Origin: an uncultured Kordia sp.
Lineage (GTDB): Bacteria; Bacteroidota; Bacteroidia; Flavobacteriales; Flavobacteriaceae
NCBI RefSeq assembly: GCF_947496985.1
Contig: NZ_CANMEZ010000006.1
Coordinates: 1 to 64,000, forward strand
Direction of reading: 5' to 3'
DNA: 64,000 nucleotides
Shown here: piece by piece, positions 4,693-59,244 of the stretch
How positions within the stretch are numbered: the stretch's first letter is position 1
Layout of the letters: the number at the start of each line of letters is the position of its first letter
Made by a program: the position numbers and the translations under genes
Notes under the pieces: model-generated
The model's input: only the letters and a program-made list of their open reading frames with translations
The model's database searches: none
Told to the model about the DNA's origin: nothing

Positions 4693-4926
4693 TTACACAC
4701 AATCTCTGCAGGTAGGAAGTTCTGTTTGTGTAATACAGGTTCCTATAACGCTAACGCCACATGTTTTTTCTTTCGTCTCAAAGCAAATATTAATTCCATT
4801 CACGTCAAGTGTACGAATACACTCTTTAAATGAATTATCAATATTTCCTCCTTTCTTGTTTAAAAGATCTAGCTTTGATATCACCTTTTTGTTTAGTGAC
4901 AATTGTCTCAATTTGCTTTTTTTCAT
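4693..4926 (-). CDS. GG-leader RiPP-type precursor peptide (class I lanthipeptide-like leader)
   Basis: A 77-residue peptide. The leader 'MKKSKLRQLSLNKKVIS' matches a family leader seen several times in this window (MKK-x-L-x-x-L-x-LNKK-x-IS). It is followed by a Lys-Lys-Gly-Gly processing-type site at residues 25-28. The core of about 49 residues has six cysteines with Thr and Ser between them (ending 'TCITQTELPTCRDCV'), which could form disulfides or thioether rings. Similar peptides in Kordia are labelled class I lanthipeptides. No lanthionine synthetase, protease or transporter is nearby, so the modification is not known. The gene stands alone on the minus strand. Confidence 0.7.
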   Translation of the reverse strand: MKKSKLRQLSLNKKVISKLDLLNKKGGNIDNSFKECIRTLDVNGINICFETKEKTCGVSVIGTCITQTELPTCRDCV

Positions 4927-5041
4927 ATAATTTGATTTTAATTAATAATGAAACAAAACAACCTATAAATTCTGGAATTAAAAACACAAGCTACCCTAAA
5001 TTGAATGATTTATGCAACTCTAATTCTACAAATTTTTAAAT

Positions 5042-5067
5042 GAAAAAAGCGAGCTACAGCTCGCTTT
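5042..5067 (-). terminator. Terminator of the 5099-5194 small peptide gene
   Basis: AAAGCGAGC, loop TACA, GCTCGCTTT, with a T run on the minus strand (AAAAAA at 5043-5048 on the plus strand). The stem is the same as that of the terminator at 31861-31886, which follows another GG-leader peptide gene. Confidence 0.8.
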
Positions 5068-5098
5068 AAGTTAATAGGTACTACTTATTTACAAGTAA

Positions 5099-5194
5099 CT
5101 ACTTTCGCCATTTCCATAAATCATCTGTAGCTGTATAACCTCCAGTAATAGAGTTTGGCTTTTCAACTTTAAACTGTTCAAATTTTTCTAACAT
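5099..5194 (-). CDS. Very small GG-leader peptide (31 residues)
   Basis: Reading from the ATG at 5194 gives a leader 'MLEKFEQFKVEKPNSITGG' and a 12-residue core 'YTATDDLWKWRK' ending at TAG. The Ser-Ile-Thr-Gly-Gly end resembles the cleavage site of double-glycine leaders exported by peptidase-containing ABC transporters. The core has no cysteine and contains two tryptophans. A clean terminator follows 32 bases downstream, which supports a real transcript. I do not recognise a family for the core; it may be a signalling or modified peptide. Confidence 0.55.
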   Translation of the reverse strand: MLEKFEQFKVEKPNSITGGYTATDDLWKWRK

Positions 5195-5301
5195 AATACA
5201 TGGTTTTAAATTAATAAGTGATTTAAAGCTACTTATTAAGTATGAAAATGAAAACCATAGTTAGCGTGAATTAGATGATTTATGGATATATCAGAATACT
5301 A

Positions 5302-5328
5302 ATATATATATATATATATATATATATT
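5302..5328. repeat. (AT)n microsatellite
   Basis: About 13 uninterrupted AT dinucleotides lie directly against the 3' end of the pseudogene at 5327-6016. Length variation between strains is likely. Confidence 0.9.
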
Positions 5329-6016
5329 ACTTTTTCCATTGATAATACAGACTAAAGAAATCTGCATCTATGTAGTGAAAAATCACAAGTTCTTTTGCAA
5401 TTGCGTATTGAATACTTTTTACTTTCTGCGGTTCGTGCTTTGTAAAAAAAGAATAATCAAGCGATGTATATTCATCTAGTCACACTTTTTGTTCACTAGT
5501 ATTTTCACGAATTAAAACAAAAGTATTAGCTATAGGAAGTAACTTTTCAAAAACTATTCTATAACCATTTTCATCAAATTTAATACAGTCCAAAGTATCA
5601 ACTGAAGTAACATCTTGATTTTTTATCTTATCTAAACTAGAAAATACTACTTTCCTCCACTCTTTTCCCAAGGCAACCTTTTTAATAATATATGACTCAG
5701 AAACAAAATTTTCAGGAGCTACATTTCTATTGTATGATATTTCATTAATGCCTACAATCTAATATGTATATTTTTTACTCTCTTTATACATAGCAACATC
5801 TGACAAGTAGACCTTAATATCATCTACGATCTTTATACTATCTTTTTTTAATTCATGATTTGAATACACCTTACTATATGACATGATCATTGTCGAATCT
5901 GTTCGTATATATAATTCTTCTCCATAAGCGCTATCCACTACCAAGCCTCCTTTTTGAGCAAGTCCGATCTGAATAAAAACTATATTTACAATAACAAAAA
6001 AAAGGTGTTTTTTCAC
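5327..6016 (-). pseudogene. Secreted protein of unknown function, broken by two in-frame stop codons
   Basis: One reading frame runs 230 codons from a GTG at 6016, which overlaps the upstream gene's stop as GTGA, to a TAA at 5327. It is interrupted by TAG at 5759-5761 and TGA at 5480-5482. The stretches on both sides read as normal protein: a signal peptide ending 'IGLAQ' at the N-terminus, then 'LYIRTDSTMIMSYSKVYS', 'IVGINEISYNRNVAPENF', 'LDCIKFDENGYRIVFEKLLP' and 'YAIAKELVIFHYIDADFF'. The frame never shifts. I read it as a recently inactivated gene cotranscribed with the 6013-7284 gene. Two different stop types argue against recoding. No family recognised. Confidence 0.7.
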
Positions 6017-7284
6017 GTTTTCTGCTTTTTCTTCTTTGCAGCTGGAAAAAGAATATTATTTAAGATTAATCGATAACCTGGAGAATTTGGATGTAGTTCT
6101 AATTCCGTTTTAGGATCTCCTACTCTATGCTGATAATCCTCAGGATCATGCCCACCATAGAATGTAAAAAAACCTTTTCCTTTGATTCCATGAATGTAAC
6201 GCCCTTCTCCATTAGTTCTATTTTCTCCCAATATTAGTACTGATGGTTTTATTTGAGAGCGATCAAAACTTGTCGTTTGCCCCATAAAGCCTTTCACCAA
6301 AGCTGTATGATTTTGACATAACATGGTTGGAATTGGATCCCATTTGGCTGAAAAATCCATCAACGTGAAATAATCTGCATCTTTTGCAATTCGCCTTTTA
6401 GCAGTCATATCAATAGATGAAAATTCATATTTTGTAGAACTTCTTTCAAGTTCAAAGTCTGTAAATGCAAATGTTTTATTATAATCTATTTTGTTTTGGT
6501 AGTTTCTATCAGACACATCTCCATCAAACATTGGTTCACAAATATCTACACCTTCAGCCGCTAATGCAATATCAAAACTATCTGTTGCGCTACACATGGC
6601 AAACATAAATCCACCACCAATAACATAATCTCTTATTTTTAGAGCAACATCACGTTTTTCCTCTGATACTTTATCGTATCCTAGTTTTTTAGCCAATGCT
6701 TCAGCTTCTTTCTTTTCACGAATGTACCAAGGCGCTGATCTGTAAATCCCATAAAACTTACCATATTGACCTGTAAAATCTTCATGGTGCAAGTGCAACC
6801 AATCATACTGAACCAAACCATCTGCCAAAACTTCTTCATCGTAAACTACATCATACGGAATCTCCGCATATGTCAATACCATCGTTACCGCATCATCCCA
6901 AGGAACATTTCCTTTTGGAGAATATACTGCAACTTTTGGTGCTTTTTCTAAAATAACAGCTTCTTGATTTTTACTTGGACTTGCTATTTCTGCTAACATT
7001 GTAGCCGTTTTTGAATCAGAAAGGATTTCATATGAAACACCTCTAATTTTACATTCTTTTTCAACCGCATCAATTGCTGGCAATAAAAATGAGCCACCTC
7101 GATAATTGAGCAACCATTTTACTTTGATCCTTTTTTCCAAAGACCAATAGGTAATTCCGTATGCTTTTAAATGATCTTTTTGAGATTCTACATCCATTGG
7201 AATGAGAATATATGACGCGTAACTACTTACTGAAAACAATAAGAGAACGATAAGAGTGATGAGATTTTTACTTTTCAATTGCAT
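6013..7284 (-). CDS. Conserved secreted protein, homologues often labelled 'asparagine synthetase B'
   Basis: A 423-residue protein with an N-terminal signal peptide (cut near 'VSSYAS'). The text 'YILIPMDVESQKDHLKAYGITYW' followed by 'NYRGGSFLL' and 'IDAVEKECKIRGVSYEIL' matches a Bacteroidetes family that databases often call asparagine synthetase B. I see neither the N-terminal nucleophile cysteine glutaminase nor the 'SGGxDS' ATP-binding loop, so that name is not supported here. The middle ('GGGFMFAMCSATDSFDIALAAEGVDI' region, 'FYGGHDPED') looks like a ThuA or glutamine-amidotransferase-like fold, which I infer only. Its stop overlaps the start of the downstream pseudogene. Confidence 0.7.
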   Translation of the reverse strand: MQLKSKNLITLIVLLLFSVSSYASYILIPMDVESQKDHLKAYGITYWSLEKRIKVKWLLNYRGGSFLLPAIDAVEKECKIRGVSYEILSDSKTATMLAEIASPSKNQEAVILEKAPKVAVYSPKGNVPWDDAVTMVLTYAEIPYDVVYDEEVLADGLVQYDWLHLHHEDFTGQYGKFYGIYRSAPWYIREKKEAEALAKKLGYDKVSEEKRDVALKIRDYVIGGGFMFAMCSATDSFDIALAAEGVDICEPMFDGDVSDRNYQNKIDYNKTFAFTDFELERSSTKYEFSSIDMTAKRRIAKDADYFTLMDFSAKWDPIPTMLCQNHTALVKGFMGQTTSFDRSQIKPSVLILGENRTNGEGRYIHGIKGKGFFTFYGGHDPEDYQHRVGDPKTELELHPNSPGYRLILNNILFPAAKKKKQKT

Positions 7285-7509
7285 TTTCTTTTATACAAGG
7301 GAAAGATACGCAAAATTACACCTATGCAAAAGAATTTATCGTTTCTATAACAGAATACCCAATTGTGCCAATGCTTTACAGGTTATCGCTTTTTATTTTT
7401 TTTGAAATTCTTTTTGATTAAATGCACTCGAAACTGACTCTACATTGTTTGTAAAAATAGATCAGACACTCTTTCATACGGAACAAGTTGTTGAATAATA
7501 CCCACAAAA

Positions 7510-8655
7510 TTACTTCAGCTGCTTCAATCCTGAAACTAAAAATGGCATAATTGGCAGGCAACTCATCACTTTGATATCTTCTAGAATGGAACTTTCATTC
7601 CCTAAAAATGCCAAAATAGTTTCAATTTTTCGATTTTTAAATATCGTAGTGAAGATTTCTTTTCCTTCTAATTTTTCAGATAGAATGACTTCTAGCAAAG
7701 TTCTATCGTACCATTGATACATTTTTTCTCTAAATGTTACTTTTGGATTTGGATGTTTTCCTTTTTTAAGTAATTCAATGATATTTTCAGTGTGTTTTTG
7801 CACAAATTGAAACGTATAACCACTACTCGCTTTTGTAAATCCACCTGCCGTTCCTAGGTTGATAATATGTTTTCCGTTTGAAACGCTCCTCGAAAATTTA
7901 GCTAATGACATTGGAATAATACCAAATTCAGTATGCAAAATTTCATAATTATCAATACTTAAATAGTCTTTAATGTAACCTTCTAGTGTTTTTTTGTATT
8001 GTTCTTTTTTCAGAATTTTTTCAGTGAATAAAGTATATTCCACCAAAGCTTCCGTTTCACTTGTTGGCAATACATACATGAAAGTTGCGCCATGCTCTTG
8101 CGATAATCGAAAATCCATCAACCGACCGACAGTTGCATCAAAAACTGGAGTTTTAGTTTTAATTACCCAACCTTCAAAATGTTGTAATAACGAGTTGGCT
8201 GTGTCCATTTTTGGATAAAAAAGATTCGTAGAATTGAACACATACGCTGCTTGATACGTAGCATTTTTGGTAGTAACTTCTGCAAAATCATCTACAGAAG
8301 TAATTCCCGTAATATTTTCAGAAGTAAAAGTTATATTTTCAAATTGCTTTGCAAAATTGATCACATAGTTATAAAAATCAATTCCTTGAATCATTTTATA
8401 ACGATAATTTGTCATGTCAAATTTATGCTGAAAATCGTTCGATAAAAACTCTAAGGTTTCCCATTGATGTGTCACAATAGATTCAAATAATCCATTTCCT
8501 TTTTCCCAGAAACACCAAGTACGATCATTTTTATTTTTTTGCTCTTTGTCTATAACTAAGATTTGCTTTTTACACAACTGCGGATCTTTTAAAATTCTGT
8601 ACAGCAAACTGAGTCCTGCACATCCTGATCCTGCAATTATATAATCATATTTCAT
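7510..8655 (-). CDS. crtY: Lycopene beta-cyclase
   Basis: Flavoprotein that closes both ends of lycopene to give beta-carotene. The N-terminus holds the dinucleotide-binding motif 'YDYIIAGSGCAGLSLLYRI'; 'DRTWCFWE' near residue 45 and 'GTAGGFTKASSGYTFQF' near residue 270 are typical of CrtY. Length (381) is normal. It follows dnaB by 13 bases on the same strand and may be cotranscribed with it. The partners crtI, crtB and crtZ are at 36-38.8 kb, so the cyclase is unlinked from the carotenoid operon. Confidence 0.92.
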   Translation of the reverse strand: MKYDYIIAGSGCAGLSLLYRILKDPQLCKKQILVIDKEQKNKNDRTWCFWEKGNGLFESIVTHQWETLEFLSNDFQHKFDMTNYRYKMIQGIDFYNYVINFAKQFENITFTSENITGITSVDDFAEVTTKNATYQAAYVFNSTNLFYPKMDTANSLLQHFEGWVIKTKTPVFDATVGRLMDFRLSQEHGATFMYVLPTSETEALVEYTLFTEKILKKEQYKKTLEGYIKDYLSIDNYEILHTEFGIIPMSLAKFSRSVSNGKHIINLGTAGGFTKASSGYTFQFVQKHTENIIELLKKGKHPNPKVTFREKMYQWYDRTLLEVILSEKLEGKEIFTTIFKNRKIETILAFLGNESSILEDIKVMSCLPIMPFLVSGLKQLK

Positions 8656-8668
8656 CTATAGGAATTTC

Positions 8669-10219
8669 TTAGAAGGGAACTTCGTTATCGTCTGGATTAA
8701 AATCGTTATTCATAGAACTCCCAAAAGCTTCGTCAGCACTTGGCAAATTATCCGTTTTGAACGTATCATCATTTGCTGCTTCGTTCATTTTTGAATGGAA
8801 TTCAAACGGAGAATCGAATGTTTCCAAGTTATCAAACTTACCTAAGTGTCCTAAGAATTTCAATCGAATGTTATCCAAACCACCATTCCTGTGTTTTGCA
8901 ACGATAAATTCTCCTTGCCCTTCCGTTGGTGAACGTTCATCATCATCCCATTCTTCAATTTTGTAGTATTCAGGACGATAAATAAACGATACAATATCGG
9001 CATCCTGCTCAATCGCTCCTGATTCACGTAAATCTGAAAGTAATGGTCTTTTTGTTCCTCCACGCGTTTCTACCGCACGTGATAACTGAGATAAGGCAAT
9101 TACAGGAACATTTAATTCTTTTGCTAATGCTTTTAAGTTACGTGAAATGGTTGAGATTTCCTGTTCACGGTTTCCTCCTTTTTGACTTCCTCCAGCCGTC
9201 ATTAACTGCAAGTAATCAATCATAATCATTTTGATTCCGTGTTGCGACGCTAAACGTCGTGCTTTTGCACGTAAATCAAAGATGGAAAGTGAAGGTGTAT
9301 CATCAATAAATAAAGGTGCCTTTTCAAGTCCTTTTACTTTTACGTTTAATTGTTCCCATTCGTGTTTCGCTAATTTACCTGTACGTAATTTTTCTGACGA
9401 AAGTCCCGTTTCCGAAGAAATTAGACGTGTAATTAACTGTACAGATGCCATCTCCAGCGAGAAGAAAGCTACAGGAATATTTTGATCTACAGCAATGTTT
9501 CGTGCCATCGATAATGTCAAGGCTGTTTTACCCATACCAGGACGTGCTGCAATAATAATTAAATCACTCGGTTGCCATCCGGAAGTTAGTTTATCTAACT
9601 CTGTAAAACCAGTTGGAACACCACTTAACCCTTCTTTATTGGAAATTTCTTCAATCTTTTTCTTTGCCTGAATTACTAAACTCTGCGCCGTTTCCGAAGA
9701 TTTTTTAATGTTTCCCTGTGTTACCTCATACAAACGTGATTCTGCTTTGTCCAACAAACTAAATACATCCGTAGTTTCATCATAGGCATCTTCAATAATT
9801 TCGTTCGATATTTTTATCAAACTACGTTGAATAAATTTCTGCAAAATGATACGTGCGTGAAATTCAATATGCGCAGATGAAGATACTTTTTGCGTAAGTG
9901 AAATCAAATAGAAATCACCACCTACCAAATCTAACTTTGAATTTTTACGCAATTGAGAAGAAACCGTTAATAAGTCAATTGGTTCAGAATTTTCAAATAA
10001 TTGAAAAATTGCTTCAAAAACAAATCGATTTGCTTCTTTATAGAATGCTTCTGGACTTAGAATATCAATTACTTCATCCACACCTTTTTTGTCAATCATC
10101 ATTGCACCAAGTACAACTTCTTCTAGATCGACGGCTTGCGGAGGTAATTTTCCTTTCTCAAGACTTATTAAATTACTTTTATCAGCTTTATATGTTTTCT
10201 TAGGGTTTACATTTTCCAT
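8669..10219 (-). CDS. dnaB: Replicative DNA helicase
   Basis: Hexameric helicase of the replication fork. The N-terminal domain ('PPQAVDLEEVVLGAMMIDKKG') is followed by the RecA-like core with Walker A 'AARPGMGKTALTLSMARN', Walker B 'MIMIDYLQLM' and 'RGGTKRPLLSDLRESGAIEQDAD'. I start at the ATG at 10219 ('MENVNPKK'), because the six codons upstream of it are not conserved in type. No intein is present. A bidirectional hairpin separates it from accA. Confidence 0.96.
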   Translation of the reverse strand: MENVNPKKTYKADKSNLISLEKGKLPPQAVDLEEVVLGAMMIDKKGVDEVIDILSPEAFYKEANRFVFEAIFQLFENSEPIDLLTVSSQLRKNSKLDLVGGDFYLISLTQKVSSSAHIEFHARIILQKFIQRSLIKISNEIIEDAYDETTDVFSLLDKAESRLYEVTQGNIKKSSETAQSLVIQAKKKIEEISNKEGLSGVPTGFTELDKLTSGWQPSDLIIIAARPGMGKTALTLSMARNIAVDQNIPVAFFSLEMASVQLITRLISSETGLSSEKLRTGKLAKHEWEQLNVKVKGLEKAPLFIDDTPSLSIFDLRAKARRLASQHGIKMIMIDYLQLMTAGGSQKGGNREQEISTISRNLKALAKELNVPVIALSQLSRAVETRGGTKRPLLSDLRESGAIEQDADIVSFIYRPEYYKIEEWDDDERSPTEGQGEFIVAKHRNGGLDNIRLKFLGHLGKFDNLETFDSPFEFHSKMNEAANDDTFKTDNLPSADEAFGSSMNNDFNPDDNEVPF

Positions 10220-10325
10220 GACTGCGAAAGTAAACAATTGATTTACTTTAGAGGTTTTAATTTTAGGTCGAATCTTAACGACACATTGTTGATAAGTTAC
10301 TAAATTTTGTTCATAAGCGGAAAAA

Positions 10326-10351
10326 AAATCCGAAGCGTTAACTTCGGATTT
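10326..10351. terminator. Terminator after accA
   Basis: AAATCCGAAG, a 6-base loop, CTTCGGATTT, with A and T runs on both sides. It lies just downstream of accA on the minus strand and upstream of dnaB. Confidence 0.85.
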
Positions 10352-10376
10352 TTATATTTCCTTATGTTGTATGGGT

Positions 10377-11330
10377 TTATCCTTTAAATTCACCCATTTT
10401 TGAATATTTGTCCATTCGTGAACTCACTAAATCCGCTTGTGATAAGTTTTTTAATTTGTCATAATTTGCAATAATAGCATCTCTGACAGCAATAAAAGTT
10501 CCTTCTCTATCTGTATGTGCTCCACCAAGTGGTTCTTTTATAATAGCGTCAATCACTTTTATTTTCATTGCGTCTGTAGCTGTAAGTTTTAACGCTTCAG
10601 CTGCTTTTTCTTTGTGTTCCCAACTACGCCATAAAATTGACGAACAGTTTTCAGGAGATATTACAGAGTACCATGAATTTTCTAACATTAATACACTGTC
10701 TCCAACACCTATTCCTAAAGCCCCACCAGAAGCTCCTTCACCAATAATGACTGTAATGATAGGGACTTTTAAACGTGTCATTTCAAGAATGTTACGCGCA
10801 ATAGCTTCTCCTTGTCCACGCTCTTCAGCTTCTAATCCTGGATATGCACCTGGTGTATCAATTAACGTAACTACAGGAATTCCAAATTTCTCTGCTGATT
10901 TCATTAAGCGTAATGCTTTACGATATCCTTCAGGGTTTGCCATTCCAAAGTTTCTATATTGACGAGTTTTAGTGTTGTATCCTTTTTGTTGACCAATAAA
11001 CATGTATGATTGATCTCCAATTTTACCAAGTCCACCAATCATTGCTTTGTCATCTTTTACATTTCTATCACCATGTAATTCTAAAAATGTATCTCCACAT
11101 AATGCGTTGATATAATCTAATGTATACGGTCTGTTTGGATGACGTGATAGTTGTACACGTTGCCAAGCTGATAGATTTTTATAGATATCTTTCTTGGTAC
11201 TTTCTAATTTTTTCTCGATTTGCTGACATGTTTCAGTAACATCAATATCACTTTCATGTCCAATAGCGACACATTTTGTCAGTTGCTCTTCTAATTCTTT
11301 TATAGGCAGCTCAAAATCTAAATATTCCAT
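10377..11330 (-). CDS. accA: Acetyl-CoA carboxylase carboxyltransferase subunit alpha
   Basis: Half of the carboxyltransferase that transfers CO2 from biotin to acetyl-CoA, the first step of fatty-acid synthesis. Family marks: '[27 protein letters not shown]', '[14 protein letters not shown]', '[29 protein letters not shown]' and '[15 protein letters not shown]'. The length of 317 is normal. It has its own promoter and a terminator, so it is a single-gene unit; accD is not in the window. Confidence 0.96.
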
Positions 11331-11363
11331 GCTTTTGAGGATATGTTTAGTTGTTTCAGTTTA

Positions 11364-11395
11364 CAAATATAAAACTTTAATTTAGGAAACATCAA
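11364..11395 (-). promoter_or_regulatory. Promoter for accA
   Basis: On the minus strand TTG (complement of 11393-11395), 21 bases, then TATATTTG (complement of 11364-11371). The predicted start is near 11357, 27 bases before the accA ATG. The -33 part lies inside the 3' end of the EamA gene. Confidence 0.55.
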
Positions 11396-12293
11396 TGCCA
11401 ACATCGGATTTTCTTTTCCTTTTGTTTTTTATGATACCATTTGCTAGTACAGTTGCCACTACAAGTAAGCTTCCGTAGTAAAATTCTGGCGTCATTTTTT
11501 CATCTATTGGAAATAATAGCAAGGCTAATAAAACTCCATATATTATTTCTAGGTTATAAGTTAACACTACTGTGTAAGGGCTAATATATAACATTATATG
11601 TGTTGATGCAATAAAAGCATATGCTGTACAGACTGATGCCAATATTATGATATAAATCCAATCGTTAGTACTCAGAAAGAAAAATTCTTCATTTCCAAAA
11701 CCGTCTGCTGCAAAGACAAGATAGATAGATATAAATAGTACTCCACATATGAACTCATAAAAAGAAATGGTTGTAGCATTGTGTTCTTCTACAAATTTAC
11801 CATTTAATACGGCAAATAGTGAGGATAAAAATGCAGATATTACACCTAATATGATTCCGTTAATGTATTTAAATTCGCTATTCATGATGATAGAAACACC
11901 AATGATTACAATAACTCCAAAAATAATTTCATACCAAATTATTTTACGCTTATAAATAATAGGTTCTATGAATGATGCAAAAAATGCTCCTGTAGAAAAC
12001 ATTACTAAAGTGATCGATATATTTGAAACATCAATTGCAGCAAAAAATGTAATCCAATGCAATGCTACTACAATTCCGGCAATGGCAAATTTAAAGAATG
12101 TTTTTAGCGATATTTTTAAGTTGATCTTTGAAATTTTAATAAATCCAAACATAATAACACCAGCAATAAGCATACGATACCATACTAGTGGAATTGCTTG
12201 AATTGTTATCAACTTTCCTAGAATTGCAGTAAATCCTGCAATAAAAACCAGCAAATGTAGATGTAGATAGTTTTTAAGTTTATCGCCTAGCAT
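11382..12293 (-). CDS. EamA/DMT-family membrane transporter
   Basis: A 303-residue membrane protein with ten predicted helices in two repeats of five, as in the drug/metabolite transporter superfamily. Typical marks are the first-helix stretch 'FIAGFTAILGKLITIQAIPLVWYRML' and the second-repeat 'TISFYEFICGVLFISIY'. The substrate cannot be told from sequence. It overlaps the start region of the preceding LptF/LptG-type gene by 14 bases, so the two are translationally coupled. Confidence 0.85.
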   Translation of the reverse strand: MLGDKLKNYLHLHLLVFIAGFTAILGKLITIQAIPLVWYRMLIAGVIMFGFIKISKINLKISLKTFFKFAIAGIVVALHWITFFAAIDVSNISITLVMFSTGAFFASFIEPIIYKRKIIWYEIIFGVIVIIGVSIIMNSEFKYINGIILGVISAFLSSLFAVLNGKFVEEHNATTISFYEFICGVLFISIYLVFAADGFGNEEFFFLSTNDWIYIIILASVCTAYAFIASTHIMLYISPYTVVLTYNLEIIYGVLLALLLFPIDEKMTPEFYYGSLLVVATVLANGIIKNKRKRKSDVGIDVS

Positions 12294-13359: not shown

Positions 13360-13365
13360 ACGTTA

Positions 13366-14826: not shown

Positions 14827-14856
14827 ATGCTTTCAAAAACTACTAACAAATACACA

Positions 14857-20596: not shown

Positions 20597-20597
20597 C

Positions 20598-27691: not shown

Positions 27692-27847
27692 ATGAAAAGA
27701 AAAAATTTAAAATCATTGAAGTTGAACAAAAAGTCAATCTCAACATTAGAGAATTTTATTGGAGGATTAAGAGCTCCTTTAGATTCTAATCAAGGATCTC
27801 AACATGATTCAAAATGTGGGTATTCTTGTACTCCGGCATTATGCTAA
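27692..27847 (+). CDS. GG-leader precursor peptide (51 residues)
   Basis: Leader 'MKRKNLKSLKLNKKSISTLE' and a Gly-Gly at residues 24-25 precede a 26-residue core ending 'GSQHDSKCGYSCTPALC'. The three cysteines with nearby Ser and Thr could give thioether rings or disulfides. The next gene encodes a paralogue with the same core spacing. The leader is the same as that of several other small genes in the window. No modification gene is next to it. Confidence 0.7.
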   Translation: MKRKNLKSLKLNKKSISTLENFIGGLRAPLDSNQGSQHDSKCGYSCTPALC

Positions 27848-27973: not shown

Positions 27974-28162
27974 ATGAAAAAAAGAGATTTAAAATCATTA
28001 AGATTAAACAAGAAATCAATTTCAAACTTAAGACATGAAGCTATTGTTGGTGGACGCATGTCAACTCCACAAGGATGTAGTGGCTCACAAAATGATTCAC
28101 AATGTGGTTTATCTTGTGATCCTGCACTATGTAAAAATGAATTGGACGCACCAGTTAACTAA
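27974..28162 (+). CDS. GG-leader precursor peptide, paralogue of the preceding gene
   Basis: A 62-residue peptide with leader 'MKKRDLKSLRLNKKSISNLR' and Gly-Gly at residues 26-27. The core has four cysteines, and 'GSQNDSQCGLSCDPALC' aligns with the core end of the upstream gene (pattern GSQ-x-DS-x-CG-x-SC-x-PALC), plus an extra C-terminal 'KNELDAPVN'. The two lie 126 bases apart, a tandem duplication. A terminator follows at once. Confidence 0.72.
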   Translation: MKKRDLKSLRLNKKSISNLRHEAIVGGRMSTPQGCSGSQNDSQCGLSCDPALCKNELDAPVN

Positions 28163-31657: not shown

Positions 31658-31837
31658 ATGTTACACAAAATTTTAAATGTAAAAGGTACCGAAGTACTAG
31701 ACAAGGCAACTCAAACAAAAATCAATGGAGGAACTTTACGTCCTCTTTGTGGACGTTCATGCTATTTACTTCCAGATTGTACAGATAGTCTTGGTTGTCC
31801 TGTTCCAAACAGACCAGAATGTGTTAACTTCTGCTAG
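31658..31837 (+). CDS. Cysteine-rich GG-leader precursor peptide (59 residues)
   Basis: Leader 'MLHKILNVKGTEVLDKATQT' ending 'KINGG' (residues 21-25), the double-glycine type used by bacteriocin and pheromone exporters in flavobacteria. The 34-residue core has six cysteines ('CGRSCYLLPDC', 'LGCPVP', 'ECVNFC'). The leader differs from the 'LKxLxLNKK' family. A strong terminator follows. No transporter or enzyme gene is adjacent apart from the ATP-grasp relic on the other strand. Confidence 0.7.
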   Translation: MLHKILNVKGTEVLDKATQTKINGGTLRPLCGRSCYLLPDCTDSLGCPVPNRPECVNFC

Positions 31838-34038: not shown

Positions 34039-34263
34039 ATGAAGAAAAAAAATCTAAATTCATTGAAACTTAACAAAAATCTTATTTCTAATTTTAAAAC
34101 TCATAATGTAGAAATTATAGGAGGCGCTTCGGACACAGGAAGAGTTTGCTGTGATCCGAATTTTACAAGAGATTGTGAACCAATTGAAATTCCAACTATA
34201 GACATTCCAACGATAAATGACAGTTGTTTTTCTTGGTGTGCCGACAAGTGTAATGATTTCTAA
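34039..34263 (+). CDS. GG-leader precursor peptide (74 residues)
   Basis: Leader 'MKKKNLNSLKLNKNLISNFK', Gly-Gly at residues 28-29, core of 45 residues with five cysteines ('RVCCDPNFTRDCEP', 'NDSCFSWCADKC'; one pair is adjacent) and a Pro-Thr-Ile repeat ('IEIPTIDIPTIND'). First of a run of three precursor loci (34039, 34377, 34674). Same leader family as the other peptides. Confidence 0.7.
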   Translation: MKKKNLNSLKLNKNLISNFKTHNVEIIGGASDTGRVCCDPNFTRDCEPIEIPTIDIPTINDSCFSWCADKCNDF

Positions 34264-34376: not shown

Positions 34377-34564
34377 ATAAAACAATCTAACTTTAAAAAC
34401 TTACGATTAAACAAGAATCAATTTCAGCATTAAAAGAAGGTAAAGCTCCGAAAGGCCTAGTTTCAGTTCTTAACATTTGTAATACTGGATGCGACTCACC
34501 TGTACACACTTATAGAATTATCAACTGTAATTTAACAGTAGTTGGCTGTCAAGCTGATAAATAG
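34377..34564 (+). pseudogene. Broken GG-leader precursor peptide
   Basis: The expected start reads ATA (34377). The leader reads 'xKQSNFKNLRLNK', then a missing base after AACAAGAA shifts the frame; in the corrected frame it continues 'SISALKEGKAPKGLVSVLNI', 'CNTGCDSPVHTYRIINC', 'NLTVVGCQADK' and TAG. Both start codon and leader frame are damaged, while the core is undisturbed. Its terminator (34583-34617) is intact. The core segment 'NCNLTVVGC' resembles that of the next gene. Confidence 0.65.
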
Positions 34565-34673: not shown

Positions 34674-34922
34674 ATGAAAAAAAGAAAGTTAAATGGATTA
34701 CAACTAAAGAAACAAGTTGTATCTGCTTTGAATCAAAACTCTATAACTGGAGGAGCAGCTAATGAAAAATTTACTGTTACCTGTGCTAGACCAATTGGCA
34801 ATTGCACAATTGCATTAACAGTGCAGCCTGAAGTTTGCCATACATTACCTAGACCTCTTGGAAATTGTACTGTACAGTATAGTATTCAGGTTTGGTGTCA
34901 GACACAAGGGAAAGACTGTTAA
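34674..34922 (+). CDS. GG-leader precursor peptide with a duplicated core motif
   Basis: An 82-residue peptide with leader 'MKKRKLNGLQLKKQVVSALN' and 'SITGG' at residues 23-27. The core holds two imperfect repeats: R39-C55 'RPIGNCTIALTVQPEVC' and R60-C75 'RPLGNCTVQYSIQVWC', then 'QTQGKDC'. Repeated cores in one precursor are known for several RiPP families and would give two similar rings or products. A terminator follows 15 bases after the stop. Confidence 0.72.
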   Translation: MKKRKLNGLQLKKQVVSALNQNSITGGAANEKFTVTCARPIGNCTIALTVQPEVCHTLPRPLGNCTVQYSIQVWCQTQGKDC

Positions 34923-48244: not shown

Positions 48245-48252
48245 AAACACTA

Positions 48253-49371: not shown

Positions 49372-49473
49372 GAATTACTATAAATTATAAGTTTGCAAAG
49401 GTACGCAACCAAATTGATTTGCATAGTAGTTTACAAAATCGTAACATTACGCTAGGAAACTAACCAAATCATT

Positions 49474-50970: not shown

Positions 50971-51132
50971 ATTTTACAGGAAAATATTATTGTTTTTGAA
51001 TACATCTCGAATATGTTCAATGCAACATCTTTATTTTAAAGATTACTATGATGAGATTCTGAATCACACTTCGACTTTACTCATTGTAAAAATTTAGAAT
51101 AACGTTTCAATACTTTTTAAAGGATAATTATC

Positions 51133-51783: not shown

Positions 51784-51792
51784 AGCTATTTT

Positions 51793-53781
51793 TTAGATAT
51801 TATCCGCAACTGCTTTATCTAAAGTCAGCGTTATTTTGGTTCCAGTGTTTGAAGCAGCAACAATATGGAATTTACCATATATCTCTTCAGCTCTAAGTTG
51901 CATGTTTTCTAAGCCATTTCCTTCCGTTTCAGGAGTATTATCAAAGCCCACTCCATTATCTTCAACATGCAATGTATATTGATCGTTGGTTTCTATGAAA
52001 TTAATTGTAATGCTTTCTGATTTTGAATGTTTGATCGCATTATTTATTGCTTCTTGCATGATTCTGAAAATATTAATTCCGACCAATGATGAGAATGTAG
52101 TGGTTTCAGAAACTTGATTCGCAAATTCAATAGAAGCACCCGTTAATATTTTGGCTTGACCAATATGATTTATCATGCGTGTTTTCAAATCTTCAAAACT
52201 GATTCTTTCCATATTCATTGCCCAAATTGTATCACGTAATTGATTGATGGTGTTTCGGGTAAAGAAATTGATATTTGATAAACGCTCGGTAAACTCAGGA
52301 TTCGTCTCTTTTAAACCATACTTTAAATTATCTATAGAAGAAATTATAAACGTTAATTGCGAGCCTATATTATCATGTAAGTCACGTGAAATTTTCAAAC
52401 GTTGTTCATGTAATTTGTTTTGTGTTTCAACTTTAATTAATGCATCTTTCAATTCATGCTCTTTTTGCAATTGTCTGTTTTTTAATTTTTGTTGATTATA
52501 TAATAAGTAACCAATTACCAGCAATACCAAAATGCCTGCCAACATCCCATAAATTGTAATGTTCTTATTTACTATTTTGGAATTTCGTTCTGCAATTTGA
52601 GCACGTTGTAAAAGAATTTCTTTTTCTTTTTCAGAAGATTGATATTTCTCAAAGATTTCAGTGGTTGCTATTTTTTCTTTTTCTTTTTGAATTGTATCTA
52701 ATAAAGTAATGGTTTCCTGGTAATACTCAGAAGCATTTTTATGATTGCCCAATTCACGATATGCATTTGCCATTCTGCGTACAGCATCACTTTTTATCAT
52801 TATCTGAGAATCGTTTAAATTATCCAGAGCAATTGTATATGCATCAATAGCGGCTTTATAATTTCCTTCATCATAATGTGCAATTCCTAATAATTGAATG
52901 TTTTTTGCGCGGTGTTTTCGAGCATTAAAGCGTGCATAAATTTCATCTGCCTTTTGCAAATAGTAAATAGCCGAATCTCGTTGTTTGAGTTGTTGATAGG
53001 TTTTTCCTAAACTATTATAACTTGTTGCCAGCCCTTTTACATCATTGATTTTTGTTTTAGTAACTACAGATTTTTGTCCATAATATATACAGGAATCCAA
53101 ATGTTTTAGCGATGAAAAGTTCATGACCATATTCGTATATGACGCGCCAATACCATAGGTGTCGTCAATTTCTTTACGAATTGCTAAACTTCGTTTGTGA
53201 TATGCATTCGATTCTTGATGTCGATCTAATCTTGACAGTAATAAGCCTATATTATTTAAGCTATTGGCTTGTCCTTTTTTTAGCCCAAGTTCTTCAAATA
53301 TTTTATAGGAACTTAGGTAATAATCCATAGCCTCCTTATATTTTTCTTTTCCCCAATAGATCAAACCTTTATTATTAAACACAGAAGCCATTGCATCTTT
53401 ATCATTTTGTTTTTTAGCAATTTCGAATGCTTTATCATACAAAATCAACGAACTATCTTTTTTCCCAACAATATCATAATACACTCCTTTTCGAAGCAAG
53501 GAACGCGTGGTTAAAAATGTATTTTGTATTATTTTGCTTTTTTGTAAAGCAATTTCTGAGAGTTTTCGAGAAATTTCAGGTTTTGAATACGCATATTTAA
53601 AAAACACTCTGTGTAAGTATTGTATCCGTACAGAATCGTTCTCCATTGTTTTACAAACATTGGAAATACTATCAATTACTTGTTGATTGGCTTGCGCGTA
53701 GGAAAGAGTAACTCCGCAATACATCAAACAAATAATAATCAAAATTTTATATGTTAACTGCTGAAATAATTTCATACGCAT
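51793..53781 (-). CDS. TPR-containing sensor histidine kinase
   Basis: A 662-residue protein with a signal peptide ('GVTLSYAQ'), about eight tetratricopeptide repeats ('ASVFNNKGLIYWGKEKYKEA', 'NSLNNIGLLLSRLDRHQESN'), one transmembrane helix near residue 410 ('ITIYGMLAGILVLLVIGYLL'), a coiled coil, then HisKA_3 'ISRDLHDNIGSQLTFIISSI' and the ATPase domain 'MQEAINNAIKHSKSESITIN' with 'DNGVGFD'. Paired with the regulator at 51133. Same layout as the 22625-25283 pair, so the two are likely paralogous systems. Confidence 0.92.
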   Translation of the reverse strand: MRMKLFQQLTYKILIIICLMYCGVTLSYAQANQQVIDSISNVCKTMENDSVRIQYLHRVFFKYAYSKPEISRKLSEIALQKSKIIQNTFLTTRSLLRKGVYYDIVGKKDSSLILYDKAFEIAKKQNDKDAMASVFNNKGLIYWGKEKYKEAMDYYLSSYKIFEELGLKKGQANSLNNIGLLLSRLDRHQESNAYHKRSLAIRKEIDDTYGIGASYTNMVMNFSSLKHLDSCIYYGQKSVVTKTKINDVKGLATSYNSLGKTYQQLKQRDSAIYYLQKADEIYARFNARKHRAKNIQLLGIAHYDEGNYKAAIDAYTIALDNLNDSQIMIKSDAVRRMANAYRELGNHKNASEYYQETITLLDTIQKEKEKIATTEIFEKYQSSEKEKEILLQRAQIAERNSKIVNKNITIYGMLAGILVLLVIGYLLYNQQKLKNRQLQKEHELKDALIKVETQNKLHEQRLKISRDLHDNIGSQLTFIISSIDNLKYGLKETNPEFTERLSNINFFTRNTINQLRDTIWAMNMERISFEDLKTRMINHIGQAKILTGASIEFANQVSETTTFSSLVGINIFRIMQEAINNAIKHSKSESITINFIETNDQYTLHVEDNGVGFDNTPETEGNGLENMQLRAEEIYGKFHIVAASNTGTKITLTLDKAVADNI

Positions 53782-54041
53782 AAAAATCTGGTTCGGTTAA
53801 ATAGTTTCAATACTAGGATAAGGTAGATGGTTTTCGGTAGAATTCCAAAACTGTAATACATCAACATATGTTTTATTCAACACAAATCTCCTAGAAACTA
53901 GCTAGTTAAAAAATACGTCAGATGACGTATTTAAAACATACTATAAGACAAATTTATATTTTAATTTTCATAGTATAAGTGATATCTATTGTTCAATAAA
54001 GAATTAAAATTTTCTTTACATAAAACCTGTATATACTTAGC
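53782..54041. other. Divergent region between the kinase and peroxiredoxin genes
   Basis: About 260 bases of AT-rich spacer without a supported gene. It includes the perfect inverted pair ACGTCA/TGACGT (53913-53924, written ACGTCAGATGACGT), a possible operator. Confidence 0.4.
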
Positions 54042-54049
54042 TATATTTG
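54042..54049 (+). promoter_or_regulatory. -7 element for the peroxiredoxin operon
   Basis: TATATTTG fits the Bacteroidetes -7 consensus; no clear -33 TTG is at the right distance, which is common in regulated promoters. The start would be near 54056, which supports ATG 54085 over the upstream in-frame codon at 53989. Confidence 0.45.
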
Positions 54050-54084
54050 CCGCTGAAAAACAACAATTTTTAAAATATATAATT

Positions 54085-54729
54085 ATGGCATTTGTAGGGA
54101 AAAAATTTCCAGATTTAAACGTAGACGCAATGAATGAAATGGGCGATACTTTCAAGTTAAACGTCCTAGAAGAAGCAATCAACAACAAGAAGAAGGTGTT
54201 ATTATTTTGGTACCCAAAAGATTTCACTTTTGTTTGCCCAACAGAATTACACGCTTTTCAAGCTGCTTTAGGTGAGTTCGAAAAAAGAAATACAGTTGTA
54301 ATTGGAGCTTCTTGTGATACTCCTGAAGTACACTTTGCTTGGTTAAACACAGCAAAAGACAACGGAGGAATTGAAGGAGTAACATATCCTTTATTAGCTG
54401 ATAGCAACAGAAACTTATCTAGTATTTTAGGTATTTTAGATATTACAAACGAAGTATACGACGAAGAAACTGGAACTGTACAAGTAGAAGGTGACAACGT
54501 AACATACAGAGCTACCTATTTAATTGACGAAGAAGGTACTGTTTTCCATGAAGGAATTAACCATATGCCAGTAGGAAGAAACGTAAACGAATACATCCGT
54601 TTAGTTGATGCTTACACGCATGTACAAGAAAAAGGAGAAGTTTGTCCAGCAAACTGGGAAGAAGGAAAAGAAGCAATGCAACCTAACGCAAAAGGAACTG
54701 CTGAATACTTAGCTTCAAACGTAAACTAA
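54085..54729 (+). CDS. Peroxiredoxin (AhpC/TSA family)
   Basis: A 214-residue thiol peroxidase that reduces H2O2 and organic peroxides. Peroxidatic cysteine in 'FYPKDFTFVCPTELHAF'-like 'WYPKDFTFVCPTELHAF', resolving cysteine in 'KGEVCPANWEEGKEAM'. I start at ATG 54085 ('MAFVGKKFPDLNVDAM'). It is first in an operon with a thioredoxin gene 6 bases downstream that may reduce it. Confidence 0.94.
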   Translation: MAFVGKKFPDLNVDAMNEMGDTFKLNVLEEAINNKKKVLLFWYPKDFTFVCPTELHAFQAALGEFEKRNTVVIGASCDTPEVHFAWLNTAKDNGGIEGVTYPLLADSNRNLSSILGILDITNEVYDEETGTVQVEGDNVTYRATYLIDEEGTVFHEGINHMPVGRNVNEYIRLVDAYTHVQEKGEVCPANWEEGKEAMQPNAKGTAEYLASNVN

Positions 54730-54735
54730 GTTATC

Positions 54736-55044
54736 ATGGTTCAAGAATTAAGTCAAGATAATTTACAAGAGTTAGTAAACAGCAACGAAACAGTTGTAGT
54801 ACAATACTCTGCAACTTGGTGTGGTAATTGTCGTATCATGAAACCAAAAGTGAAGAAATTAGCACGTGAGTTAGAAAACGTAACATTTGTAATTGCTGAT
54901 GCTGAAAAGTTTCCTGAATCAAGACAGTTAGCTACAGTTGACAATTTACCAACGTTTGCAACCTTTAAAAATGGAACATTTGTAAGTCAAGTACAGACAA
55001 ACAAGTTTGACGTTTTAAAAGAGTTAGTAGAAGAAGTAGCTTAA
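54736..55044 (+). CDS. Thioredoxin-family protein
   Basis: 102 residues with the active site 'YSATWCGNCRIMKPKVKKLA' (C-G-N-C rather than the C-G-P-C of standard thioredoxin) and cis-proline segment 'VDNLPTFATFKNG'. Cotranscribed with the peroxiredoxin, of which it is the likely reductant. The changed dipeptide should shift its redox potential. Confidence 0.92.
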   Translation: MVQELSQDNLQELVNSNETVVVQYSATWCGNCRIMKPKVKKLARELENVTFVIADAEKFPESRQLATVDNLPTFATFKNGTFVSQVQTNKFDVLKELVEEVA

Positions 55045-55097
55045 TTAATAAATACGAATACAAAATTTCCTTTTACTAGGGAATAAAAATTATTTAT

Positions 55098-55355
55098 ATG
55101 AAATTACCAGTAATTAAACACTTAACACAATTTATTGCCGAAAATGATGAGGATTATGTTGTGGAAACTATTGAAACATTAGAAGCGTTAACTGAAGTAC
55201 CTTCGCTTAAAGATGAGGAATTGGATGTTATTGGAGAACTTATTTCCAATATGTATGGAGCTATTGAAGTTCATAAGATGGAGAAAGAAGGAACACCAAG
55301 AAAACAAGCCTTAAATAGTTTTATGCAACGTGTTATGGGTTCAATTGATAAGTAA
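55098..55355 (+). CDS. DUF6952 family protein
   Basis: An 85-residue helical protein ('MKLPVIKHLTQFIAENDEDY', 'VVETIETLEALTEVPSLKDE'). In flavobacteria this gene regularly follows the peroxiredoxin-thioredoxin pair, as here (53 bases). No function known; the linkage suggests a part in peroxide defence. A terminator follows. Confidence 0.8.
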   Translation: MKLPVIKHLTQFIAENDEDYVVETIETLEALTEVPSLKDEELDVIGELISNMYGAIEVHKMEKEGTPRKQALNSFMQRVMGSIDK

Positions 55356-55381
55356 TAAATTTTATTATAAGCTTATAAACT

Positions 55382-55413
55382 AAAAAGTCACTTCATATGA
55401 AGTGACTTTTTTT
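55382..55413. terminator. Bidirectional terminator between the peroxiredoxin operon and katG
   Basis: AAAAAGTCACTTCATATGAAGTGACTTTTT is a perfect 30-base palindrome. Confidence 0.9.
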
Positions 55414-55436
55414 ATATGTCTAATTTAATGTATGAT

Positions 55437-57620
<2,184 letters not shown>

Positions 57621-57698
57621 TTAGATATTTGGTTAATTTTTAATACGTTCAATTTTGTATGATCTAAAATTAATCAATAATATCATCATTTACTATAA

Positions 57699-57709
57699 AT
57701 CAAATTGAT
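57699..57709. promoter_or_regulatory. Candidate operator between katG and tpx
   Basis: ATCAA-A-TTGAT is a perfect 11-base palindrome in the 211-base divergent spacer. It is short enough to be chance in AT-rich DNA. Confidence 0.25.
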
Positions 57710-57825
57710 AATTTTTATTTTATGATAGATTATTATTATTTAACAATTAACAAAAAATAACAATTATTTACATCTTTTTACGTGTTTATTCTCTATTTTT
57801 AAACATTATAAAAACTCAAATAACT

Positions 57826-58332
57826 ATGGCATCTGTAACATTACAAGGCAATGAATTTCATACTTCTGGAAGTTTACCCGCAGTTGGAGCTAAAGCACCT
57901 GATTTTGCATTAACTGCAACAGATTTATCTACAAAAACATTAGAAGATTTTAAAGGATCAAAAATAGTATTAAACATTTTCCCTAGTATTGATACAGGAA
58001 CATGTGCTACATCCGTTCGTACATTTAATAGAGAAGCAAGTGAACTAGATAATACAAAAGTATTATGTATTTCTCACGATTTACCATTTGCGCAAGCACG
58101 TTTTTGTGGAGCAGAAGGCTTAGACAACGTTGTCAACCTTTCTGATTATAAAAGTGGAAGTTTCGGAAAAGATTACGGATTGAATTTCATTGACGGCCCA
58201 TTAGATACATTACATTCACGTGTAGTAGTGGTTATTGACGAAAACGGAATTGTAAAGTATACAGAACAAGTTTCTGAAATCGTAGATGAACCAAATTATA
58301 AAGGAGCATTAGAAGCATTATTAGATGATTAA
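57826..58332 (+). CDS. tpx: Thiol peroxidase (Tpx type)
   Basis: 168-residue atypical 2-Cys peroxiredoxin. 'ASVTLQGNEFHTSGSLPAVG' at the N-terminus, peroxidatic cysteine in 'SIDTGTCATSVRTFNREASE', resolving cysteine in 'ARFCGAEGLDNVVNLSDYK'. Cytoplasmic. It overlaps the diacylglycerol kinase gene by 8 bases. Confidence 0.95.
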   Translation: MASVTLQGNEFHTSGSLPAVGAKAPDFALTATDLSTKTLEDFKGSKIVLNIFPSIDTGTCATSVRTFNREASELDNTKVLCISHDLPFAQARFCGAEGLDNVVNLSDYKSGSFGKDYGLNFIDGPLDTLHSRVVVVIDENGIVKYTEQVSEIVDEPNYKGALEALLDD

Positions 58333-58684
58333 ATTCATTAAAGGAAGAGTAAAAGGAGTTGGATATGCGTTTAAAGGCGCATATCTGCTCATTACTACAG
58401 AAGCCAGCGTAAAAGCACAATTTTTTATTGGTGTTTTAGTAACGATTGCTGGTATTTATTTCAATATCTCTACAACAGAATGGATTGTTCAGACATTAAC
58501 TATTGGACTTATTATGAGTTTAGAAGGTTTGAACACGGCTATTGAAGAAATTGCCGATTTTATTCACCCTGAACATCATAAAAAAATTGGATTAATTAAA
58601 GATTTAGCCGCTGGCGCTGTCTTTATTTTTGCCATTGCAGCAATTATAATTGGTTGTTTTATTTATTTACCTAAAATGGTTTGA
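58325..58684 (+). CDS. dgkA: Diacylglycerol kinase (DgkA family)
   Basis: 119-residue membrane protein with three helices. The catalytic 'SLEGLNTAIEEIADFIHPEH' and 'KIGLIKDLAAGAVFIFAIAA' are conserved. By context it may phosphorylate diacylglycerol or undecaprenol. Its translation is coupled to tpx by overlap. Confidence 0.93.
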   Translation: MIKFIKGRVKGVGYAFKGAYLLITTEASVKAQFFIGVLVTIAGIYFNISTTEWIVQTLTIGLIMSLEGLNTAIEEIADFIHPEHHKKIGLIKDLAAGAVFIFAIAAIIIGCFIYLPKMV

Positions 58685-58782
58685 AATAGCACTCCATATT
58701 TATGAATCCAGACTAGTGATTATTTTTTATTCTTCTTTTTATTCTAATCTTCGTTTCATTATTAACCATAAAACTTACGATT

Positions 58783-58959
58783 ATGAAAAAAAGATCACTT
58801 AAAAGTTTATCATTAAAAAAGACTACTGTTAGCAATTTAGATACTAACGCAGTACAAGGAGGAAAAGCAGCCTCTAGAACACTTTGGAACTCTATTATTG
58901 TTTGTGTTACTAGATGGACAAATGAAGATTGTCCTTCATTAACATGTCCTGAAGAATAG
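58783..58959 (+). CDS. GG-leader precursor peptide (58 residues)
   Basis: Leader 'MKKRSLKSLSLKKTTVSNLD' and 'VQGG' at residues 24-27, core of 31 residues with three cysteines ('IIVCVTRWTNEDCPSLTC'). Two Trp are present. The leader is a variant (LKK-TTVSN for LNKK-SISN) of the common family. It lies 98 bases downstream of dgkA and probably has its own promoter. A broken paralogue follows at 59063. Confidence 0.7.
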   Translation: MKKRSLKSLSLKKTTVSNLDTNAVQGGKAASRTLWNSIIVCVTRWTNEDCPSLTCPEE

Positions 58960-59062
58960 TTCAGAGAAACATTCACTTATCAATTGTTAAACTAATACAA
59001 AAAACTACTTCAGCTATCATTTCTTCTTACCTTTTTATATCATTAATCAAAAACATTTCATT

Positions 59063-59244
59063 ATAAAAAAAGGAATTAAAAATTTTAGCATTAAACAAGA
59101 AATCAATTTCTGATTTAGAACATGCCGTAATAAGGAGGAGTGCTTCCATCATATAAAGAATGTCCGCTTCCAACAGGCTGTATTGGACCATCACATCCAA
59201 CATGTGGAATTGCACTTACTTGTACAGAAGGAAGTGAAAAGTAA
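59063..59244 (+). pseudogene. Broken GG-leader precursor peptide
   Basis: The expected start reads ATA. Within the A-rich start the frame is off by one. The leader then reads 'LKILALNKKSISDLEHAVI' and an extra A turns ATAGGAGGA into ATAAGGAGGA, shifting the frame before Gly-Gly. In the corrected frame the core is 'VLPSYKECPLPTGCIGPSHP' and 'TCGIALTCTEGSEK', with four cysteines, and ends at TAA 59242. A terminator is intact. The core is well kept, so the loss looks recent. Confidence 0.65.

Follow-up and report, generated by a model that had tools for sequence, protein, structure and literature searches.

Peptide genes of the window

The stretch of DNA analysed here, referred to as the window, comprises 64 kb (64,000 nucleotides) at the start of contig C6 of a Kordia genome (5.48 Mb, 61 contigs), and it carries small genes for peptides whose leaders mostly end in Gly-Gly (GG). 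The original prediction, made from the window alone, described eight intact and two broken genes of this kind, six of the intact ones with a common leader, and proposed that a single enzyme and export set elsewhere serves many such orphan precursors. We built a hidden Markov model (HMM) of this leader, iterated from 101 regular-expression seeds; the model is 27 positions long, and 12 bits was the threshold for membership. The peptides were also compared with the NCBIfam family NF038153 (lant_leader_L1a, class I lanthipeptide), which has a curated cut-off of 22 bits. The features are given below with their lengths in amino acids (aa).

4693..4926, minus strand: intact precursor, 77 aa, leader MKKSKLRQLSLNKKVISKL...KKGG; leader HMM 28.0 bits, NF038153 E 0.011
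5099..5194, minus strand: 31-aa open reading frame (ORF) with ITGG, a third leader type; leader HMM 2.1 bits (best domain)
27692..27847, plus strand: intact precursor, 51 aa; leader HMM 37.2 bits, NF038153 E 0.19
27974..28162, plus strand: intact precursor, 62 aa, similar to its neighbour at 27692; leader HMM 45.4 bits, NF038153 E 0.0043
31658..31837, plus strand: GG-leader peptide of another family (MLxxILNxKGxxxLxKxxQxxINGG); leader HMM 0.6 bits (best domain)
34039..34263, plus strand: intact precursor, 74 aa; leader HMM 39.3 bits, no NF038153 match
34377..34564, plus strand: broken precursor copy by its sequence, start codon absent and frame interrupted; below 12 bits in the leader HMM
34674..34922, plus strand: intact precursor, 82 aa; leader HMM 39.5 bits, NF038153 E 0.00081
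58783..58959, plus strand: intact precursor, 58 aa; leader HMM 44.9 bits, NF038153 E 0.0033
59063..59244, plus strand: broken precursor copy, start codon absent; leader relic at 59067-59120, 26.4 bits

All eight intact ORFs were present as predicted. Six of them share the main leader, of about 27 residues with a Gly-Gly end (28.0-45.4 bits each), and the remaining two belong to other leader families, for which the stretches read in this genome contain two (5099 type) and four (31658 type) regular-expression matches. The claim of two broken copies was borne out at 59063, where a leader relic is recognisable; the copy at 34377 falls below the threshold, yet two of the 11 Kordia genomes (L181 and L189) have intact kin at the corresponding site. 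Cores like that of the 4693 peptide were also found at C2:250433 and C2:319984. Matches to LanB, LanC, C39 and SPASM were all absent from the window, in agreement with the prediction that no synthetase, protease or exporter lies beside the peptides.

A search of PHROGs with four of the eight intact window peptides returned no match, and a phage origin was therefore rejected. Proteusin identity was rejected because the leader model spans 27 positions and the eight window peptides gave no long nitrile-hydratase-like or Nif11-like match in Pfam or NCBIfam.

A dispersed precursor family in the genome

We then read 1,313,683 bases of the source genome, consisting of the window, stretches around leader matches and 40 evenly spaced 20-kb stretches. 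In these bases, 202 intact leader-family ORFs reached the 12-bit threshold. In a single dinucleotide shuffle of them, no ORF reached even 6 bits, so chance ORFs were rejected as an explanation. The leaders end in Gly-Gly before the core in 194 of the 202 members; this predicted feature is thus common without being universal. When the systematic sample was extended by 20 stretches, to 60 evenly spaced ones totalling 1.2 Mb, the set grew to 209 members, and five additional listed matches fall outside it. The 60 stretches hold 48 precursors, which corresponds to about 219 per genome (95% bootstrap interval 114-347), and a capture-recapture estimate gave about 266. A genome search with NF038153, in which 150 of 246 candidates were scored and matches were kept to E 1, yielded at least 131 matches, 124 of them in the leader-HMM set; outside the window, 35 of the 131 matches listed pass the curated cut-off (same-frame neighbours included). 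The first systematic sample held 30 precursors, and just 14 of them were among these matches, indicating that NF038153 undercounts the family. In K. algicida, 11 precursors in 400 kb correspond to about 138 per genome (38-264).

The 202 precursors are spread over 97 places on 18 contigs. Within the limits of the stretches, 43 stand singly, and 156 lie less than 1 kb from another; cluster sizes are partly bounded by stretches that extend only 1.5 kb from a match. No member of the 202 shares more than 30 nt with a long ORF. Grouping the 209 cores gave 146 groups, of which 116 are singletons. Ten further leader-like stretches of at least 12 bits lie outside the 202: one is cut by a stretch end, one looks intact, and about eight are relic-like, which suggests that copies are gained and lost.

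A single LanB and its operon

The N-terminal domain of LanB has one match in the genome, and LanB alone among the enzymes is strictly single. It lies in the following operon.

C1:474-485 kb: LanB operon with LanC, LanB-N (751 aa), a separate LanB-C (308 aa), a TPR-AraC regulator, HlyD, three leader-type peptides and a C39-peptidase ABC exporter (735 aa)

Profile matches were E 1.4e-45 for LanC, E 2.2e-151 for LanB-N and E 3.3e-72 for LanB-C. Against chains in the PDB, LanB-N matched NisB (E 1.8e-23) and LanC matched NisC (E 5.9e-5). The exporter carries the stretches QMDCGPTCL, RHFVVVY and VADPAHG, which we take to be catalytic. LanB of this genome shares 97% identity with its Kordia jejudonensis counterpart and 86-91% with other Kordia records. 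Of the 202 precursors, only 2 are encoded less than 20 kb from LanB; the third operon peptide scores 9.6 bits, below the threshold.

The genome search for LanB/LanC, radical SAM, YcaO and C39-ABC genes thus located this operon, together with one SPASM radical SAM gene and no YcaO. The prediction of one enzyme and export set for many orphans is supported, in that the genome has one LanB, with LanC and the split C-terminal domain adjacent and C39-ABC and HlyD at the same locus. Singleness holds for LanB and not for the whole set: elsewhere the genome has three additional LanC genes and one free-standing C39 protein. All four LanC matches occur in frames of 405-640 aa, which is short for the bifunctional LanM of prochlorosin-type systems, although no search aimed directly at its dehydratase domain was made. 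A YcaO-type ribosomally synthesised and post-translationally modified peptide (RiPP) was rejected because the genome has no YcaO match; 5 of 14 control genomes were positive.

Evidence linking the leader family to LanB

We consider it probable (about 0.8) that the window's six main-leader peptides are LanA precursors of the class I lanthipeptide type and part of a dispersed, Kordia-wide family of about 200 per genome that is served in trans by one LanB. The precursors would be translated at their scattered loci, and their common N-terminal leader, of the LxLxKx5L type, would be recognised in trans by the single split LanB at C1:475 kb. This enzyme, with a predicted glutamylation subunit and a separate elimination subunit, would dehydrate Ser and Thr in the core, after which the operon LanC would form (methyl)lanthionine rings with Cys, a task that another LanC (C15:12 kb) perhaps performs for one precursor subgroup. 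The C39-peptidase ABC exporter with HlyD would then cut after Gly-Gly and export the product. The analysis directly establishes the genes and how many copies of each exist, the homology of the leaders, their co-occurrence with LanB, the make-up and spacing of the cores, conservation at two sites and operon linkage in relatives; the action of this LanB on every scattered precursor, ring formation, GG cleavage and any biological role are inferred.

The comparison panel consisted of 99 relatives, including 11 Kordia genomes (the source genome and ten further). LanB is present in 21 of the 99, with exactly one in each of the 11 Kordia genomes. Leader matches to NF038153 occurred in 18 of the 21 LanB-positive relatives and in 1 of the 78 LanB-negative ones; with our own leader alignment, the counts were 16 of 21 and 2 of 78. 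In all 11 Kordia genomes every one of the 84 candidates scored was a match (at least 84 each), compared with 0-4 matches in the other 88 genomes. With up to 150 candidates scored, the numbers were at least 150 in K. jejudonensis, 150 in K. aestuariivivens, 148 in a Kordia metagenome-assembled genome (MAG), 140 in K. periserrulae, 129 in K. algicida and 114 in K. zhangzhouensis. Outside Kordia we counted 17 in Leptobacterium, 16 in Lacinutrix, 8 in Aquimarina sp. AU474, 7 in A. acroporae, 5 in Aquimarina sp. 2201CG14-23, 4 in A. litoralis, and 5 and 3 in two Psychroserpens genomes. These counts indicate modest numbers in some relatives and a large expansion seen only in Kordia.

The core gene order of the LanB locus was kept in all eight Kordia loci compared. 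In Lacinutrix (L155), a peptide with a leader of the scattered Kordia type (MMKKKNLKSLKLNKKSISNF..., 45 bits) is encoded on the opposite strand less than 400 bp from LanC, and another leader peptide lies between LanB-C and HlyD.

The cores were then compared with their leaders and with other ORFs. Cys occurs in all 202 cores (median 5) and makes up 11.4% of core residues and 0.0% of leader residues; after residue 25 of 682 other small intergenic ORFs it accounts for 2.9%. In 179 non-redundant cores, set against within-core shuffles, Ser/Thr was enriched at each distance from 3 to 6 residues ahead of Cys (z 4.0, 6.4, 7.5 and 6.4, in that order) and depleted 4, 5 and 6 residues after it (z -4.1, -3.1 and -3.0), and 856 of 860 Cys had a Ser or Thr upstream in the core. 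No directional Ser/Thr-Cys spacing was detected in a control of 852 ordinary long ORFs. The spacing is therefore compatible with lanthionine rings.

Alternatively, the peptides might be unmodified, disulfide-rich secreted peptides or bacteriocins that use the C39 exporter only, with LanB limited to the two or three precursors of its operon. GG leaders alone are enough for C39 export, and the odd window peptides at 5099 and 31658 may be of this sort. Unmodified export is nonetheless improbable for the main family, whose leader tracks LanB across genomes, is encoded in its scattered form beside LanC and LanB in Lacinutrix, and precedes cores in which Ser/Thr-Cys spacing is directional and nearly every Cys has an upstream Ser or Thr. 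Together, these observations make LanB the likely partner of the scattered leaders.

Two observations in relatives concern the same enzymes. In L157, L160 and L162 (Psychroserpens and an uncultured Flavobacteriaceae), three to five peptides with near-identical leaders are followed by LanC, C39-ABC, a second LanC and a split LanB; judged by gene content, these arrays represent the clustered form of the same system. In a distant phylum, an 8-kb contig of a Candidatus Aminicenantes MAG (L166) encodes a split LanB 51% identical to Kordia LanB, which would reflect either transfer or a binning error.

Conservation of precursor genes and remaining alternatives

In 10 of the 11 Kordia genomes, the same MerR-type gene is preceded by an ortholog of the 34674 peptide, and in 4 of 11 ftsK is preceded by an ortholog of the 58783 peptide (the source genome included in both counts); intact kin of the broken 59063 copy are found upstream of ftsK in 7 of 11. 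The pooled ratio of nonsynonymous to synonymous substitution (dN/dS) was 0.13 for the leader and 0.08 for the core in the 34674 set, 0.23 and 0.39 in the 58783 set, and 0.16 and 0.25 in the set of 59063 kin. Leader and core are thus under purifying selection in the three syntenic sets tested. An A at position -3 of the start codon was found in 85% of precursors and 43% of long ORFs (first-start ORFs, with true starts uncertain).

These results bear on the suggestion that most scattered copies are decaying or selfish duplicates of little function, few of which are made. Such turnover would fit the two broken copies of the window, the relic-like leader stretches outside the 202 and the many local copies lying within 1 kb of another. 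Against it stand the low dN/dS of 0.08-0.39 in both leader and core of the three syntenic sets, an ortholog kept in nearly all Kordia genomes, an excess of intact genes over detected relics of about 20 to 1, and the start-codon context common to the precursors, and we regard general decay as quite unlikely.

Modification of the Cys-rich cores by a radical SAM enzyme instead of LanB is the least probable alternative and very unlikely, although a deep-learning classifier labelled some Kordia precursors as modified in this way and the precursors of one predicted radical SAM cluster co-localise with class I lanthipeptide enzymes (PMC11118758), because the leader co-occurs with LanB, YcaO is lacking, and the only SPASM protein, which resembles RiPP maturases (C6:281139; TIGR03913 521.5 bits, cut-off 591.75), is near a different small peptide. 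This single gene (L231:8678-10366) was rejected as the common maturase, as no leader-family peptide of at least 12 bits lies in its 19-kb stretch; radical SAM proteins lacking SPASM were not searched for.

Several observations weigh against service of the whole family by the one LanB. First, five of the eight intact window peptides match NF038153 (E 0.00081-0.19, 11.9-19.5 bits), and none reaches its 22-bit cut-off. The strict LxLxKx5L leader is found in only 120 of the 209 members (196 in a relaxed form), and the operon precursors carry a leader, KLGLxKLxLTKSRIAEL, that differs slightly from most scattered ones; leader recognition may possibly be split between operon and scattered precursors. 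The Fisher p of 1e-15 for co-occurrence of NF038153 matches with LanB is optimistic, as the genomes are related by descent. Seven of the 202 cores have a single Cys. Two further features are not predicted by a simple ring model: a Ser/Thr excess at the second residue after Cys (z 7.7), which may reflect repeated CPT motifs, and a deficit at the second residue before it (z -2.5). In 21 Cys-rich long ORFs, Ser/Thr five residues before Cys was raised as well (68/258, or 40/216 without one repeat protein, itself a possible lanthipeptide precursor). The 34674 set is close to saturation at synonymous sites (proportion of synonymous differences, pS, about 0.7). Finally, TAnnTTTG, which we take to be a promoter motif, was not enriched upstream of precursors (33 of 201, shuffled mean 29.6), with a weak signal in site position (13 of 35 between -40 and -21).

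Regulators paired with peptide genes

The TPR-AraC regulator of the LanB operon has homologs elsewhere that carry one hydrophobic segment before the C-terminal domain. Two of these regulators were scanned against Pfam and contain TPR and AraC domains. From sequence, the TPR region is likely to lie in the periplasm, joined by one transmembrane helix to an AraC DNA-binding domain in the cytoplasm. Across the stretches read and the relatives' LanB loci, 41 of 44 distinct regulators, in Kordia and Aquimarina, have a GG-leader peptide directly downstream, mostly at 49-168 bp, by a loose rule (GG, GA or AG within residues 16-45 and at least three Lys in the first 24). This count excludes ORFs below 290 aa, ORFs lacking a hydrophobic segment before the helix-turn-helix (HTH) and duplicates. 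Two multi-pass AraC proteins (L099:2657 and L206:10831), neither with a peptide, were set aside, and including them gives 41 of 46; a truncated K. algicida regulator was also excluded, and the GG peptide downstream of it scores 1.2 bits.

Pairing was seen for 13 of 13 regulators in the targeted stretches of the source genome, a biased sample (49-120 bp), for 11 of 11 at Kordia LanB loci (84-90 bp) and for 12 of 15 in other genera. In the unbiased systematic stretches, all five regulators were paired by the leader HMM (83-394 bp), compared with a precursor within 400 bp downstream of 12 of 809 long ORFs (Fisher p 3e-10). This regulator-peptide pairing suggests peptide sensing. We compared distances between sensor domains and between cores: within the source genome, coevolution was not significant (n=16, r 0.09, p 0.17), which gives no support to the peptide being the ligand, and over all 39 pairs the correlation was r 0.58, with a partial r of 0.37 given the HTH (p 0.0002), values that are confounded by kinship.

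A tentative reading, which we would not rate as likely, is that part of the family acts as private signals, an exported LanB-modified peptide binding the TPR region of its partner and switching on peptide genes. The system would then combine a lanthipeptide pheromone with a one-component receptor in Gram-negative bacteria, in many sets per genome, an idea we put forward as speculative. The regulator-peptide pairs offer a testable lead on why the bacterium keeps so many peptides.

Relation to known lanthipeptide systems

The closest parallel in organisation is found in picocyanobacteria, where prochlorosins and synechococsins (ProcM, SyncM) have a conserved leader, a divergent core and genes scattered singly or in tandem (PMC10783134). 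SyncM has 79 putative SyncA substrates (PMC9872173) and was called the most substrate-flexible lanthipeptide enzyme reported in a 2025 review (PMC12328550). Kordia resembles this system in having one synthetase and many scattered precursors with a conserved leader. However, prochlorosins have a Nif11 leader and are made by a class II LanM, whereas Kordia has LxLxKx5L leaders, a class I split LanB accompanied by a separate LanC protein, and roughly 200 precursors in each genome. If our reading is true, Kordia would be the class I counterpart of the prochlorosin system, and its LanB would surpass SyncM by precursor count.

In Bacteroidetes, leaders of the LxLxKx5L type with GG and C39 were assigned to class I lanthipeptides by Walker et al. 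(2020), who also reported split LanB (PMC7268733). The leader motif, GG end, C39 and split LanB of these class I systems are like those of Kordia; the pinensins, too, have a split LanB. For other Bacteroidota LanB enzymes, the native GluRS and tRNA-Glu were required (PMC9993889). Precursors were sought by Walker et al. only within seven genes of LanC, and one notable class I cluster was exceptional in holding 10 distinct precursors (PMC7268733), whereas Kordia has just 2 of 202 precursors less than 20 kb from LanB. Searches limited to the enzyme neighbourhood overlook almost all of the precursors described here.

The abundance of precursors is partly in print. A 2024 TrRiPP survey found that one Bacteroidota genome can hold as many as 176 RiPP precursors, with Kordia as exemplar of Flavobacteriaceae, and reported LanC and a nucleotidyltransferase around Kordia precursors (PMC11118758). 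The parts of that survey covered here contain no tie to a single LanB, leader/LanB co-occurrence, ring spacing, synteny or regulator pairs. A 2010 survey described a type 1 lantibiotic cluster in K. algicida OT-1 with LanB, LanC and one LanA (PMC3091789); LanB and LanC are as here, and the sections consulted name the one LanA and make no mention of a scattered family. In the text consulted, a lanthipeptide cluster receives a single mention in the genome paper on K. antarctica (PMC7477175), and a Flavobacteriaceae survey lists a proteusin-like Kordia cluster (PMC10734526). Our literature search, thin on subscription journals and partial for several sources, returned no paper that attributes the precursors of Kordia to a single class I enzyme set or reports regulator-peptide pairs; what appears to be new is the reading of one class I enzyme set acting in trans, together with the pairing of regulators and peptides.

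As class I dehydratase and cyclase are separate proteins, each enzyme could be examined on its own to learn how a single pair would make defined rings in hundreds of unrelated cores, and cores conserved in place across species provide natural variation for tests of function.

Other peptide and maturation loci

The window peptide at 31658-31837 belongs to a second GG-leader family (MLxxILxLxGxxxLxKxxQxxINGG) with Cys in its cores, further members of which lie at C15:13923-14090, C4:355488-355649 and C4:476606-476737. This family is perhaps exported via the same C39 transporter.

The second LanC, on C15 (L043:9758-12976, LanC at about 12 kb), has no LanB beside it and is accompanied by three similar precursors and a gene with a nucleotidyltransferase domain, a combination resembling that described in PMC11118758. 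A class V-like locus at C1:149398-154270 (L042:4399-9271) contains a 460-aa Thr/Gly/Cys repeat protein (GPTGTQGCTQPGHCVG...) followed by an APH-type kinase, a HopA1-domain protein and LanC. The kinase is LxmK-like, far below the cut-off, and the repeat protein is an unusually long, many-core candidate substrate. On C5 (L046:7312-9192), a 626-aa protein with a LanC-like domain stands beside a large gene that resembles a nonribosomal peptide synthetase, a label given by reading of its sequence.

The SPASM gene, nearest to the GDL-peptide maturase family TIGR03913 and below its cut-off, adjoins a short peptide gene and is probably part of a separate RiPP-like system. At C7:120057-120659 (L047:16057-16659), a 200-aa free-standing C39 peptidase has an N-terminus that is lipoprotein-like by eye and no ABC part; it is possibly a second leader protease.

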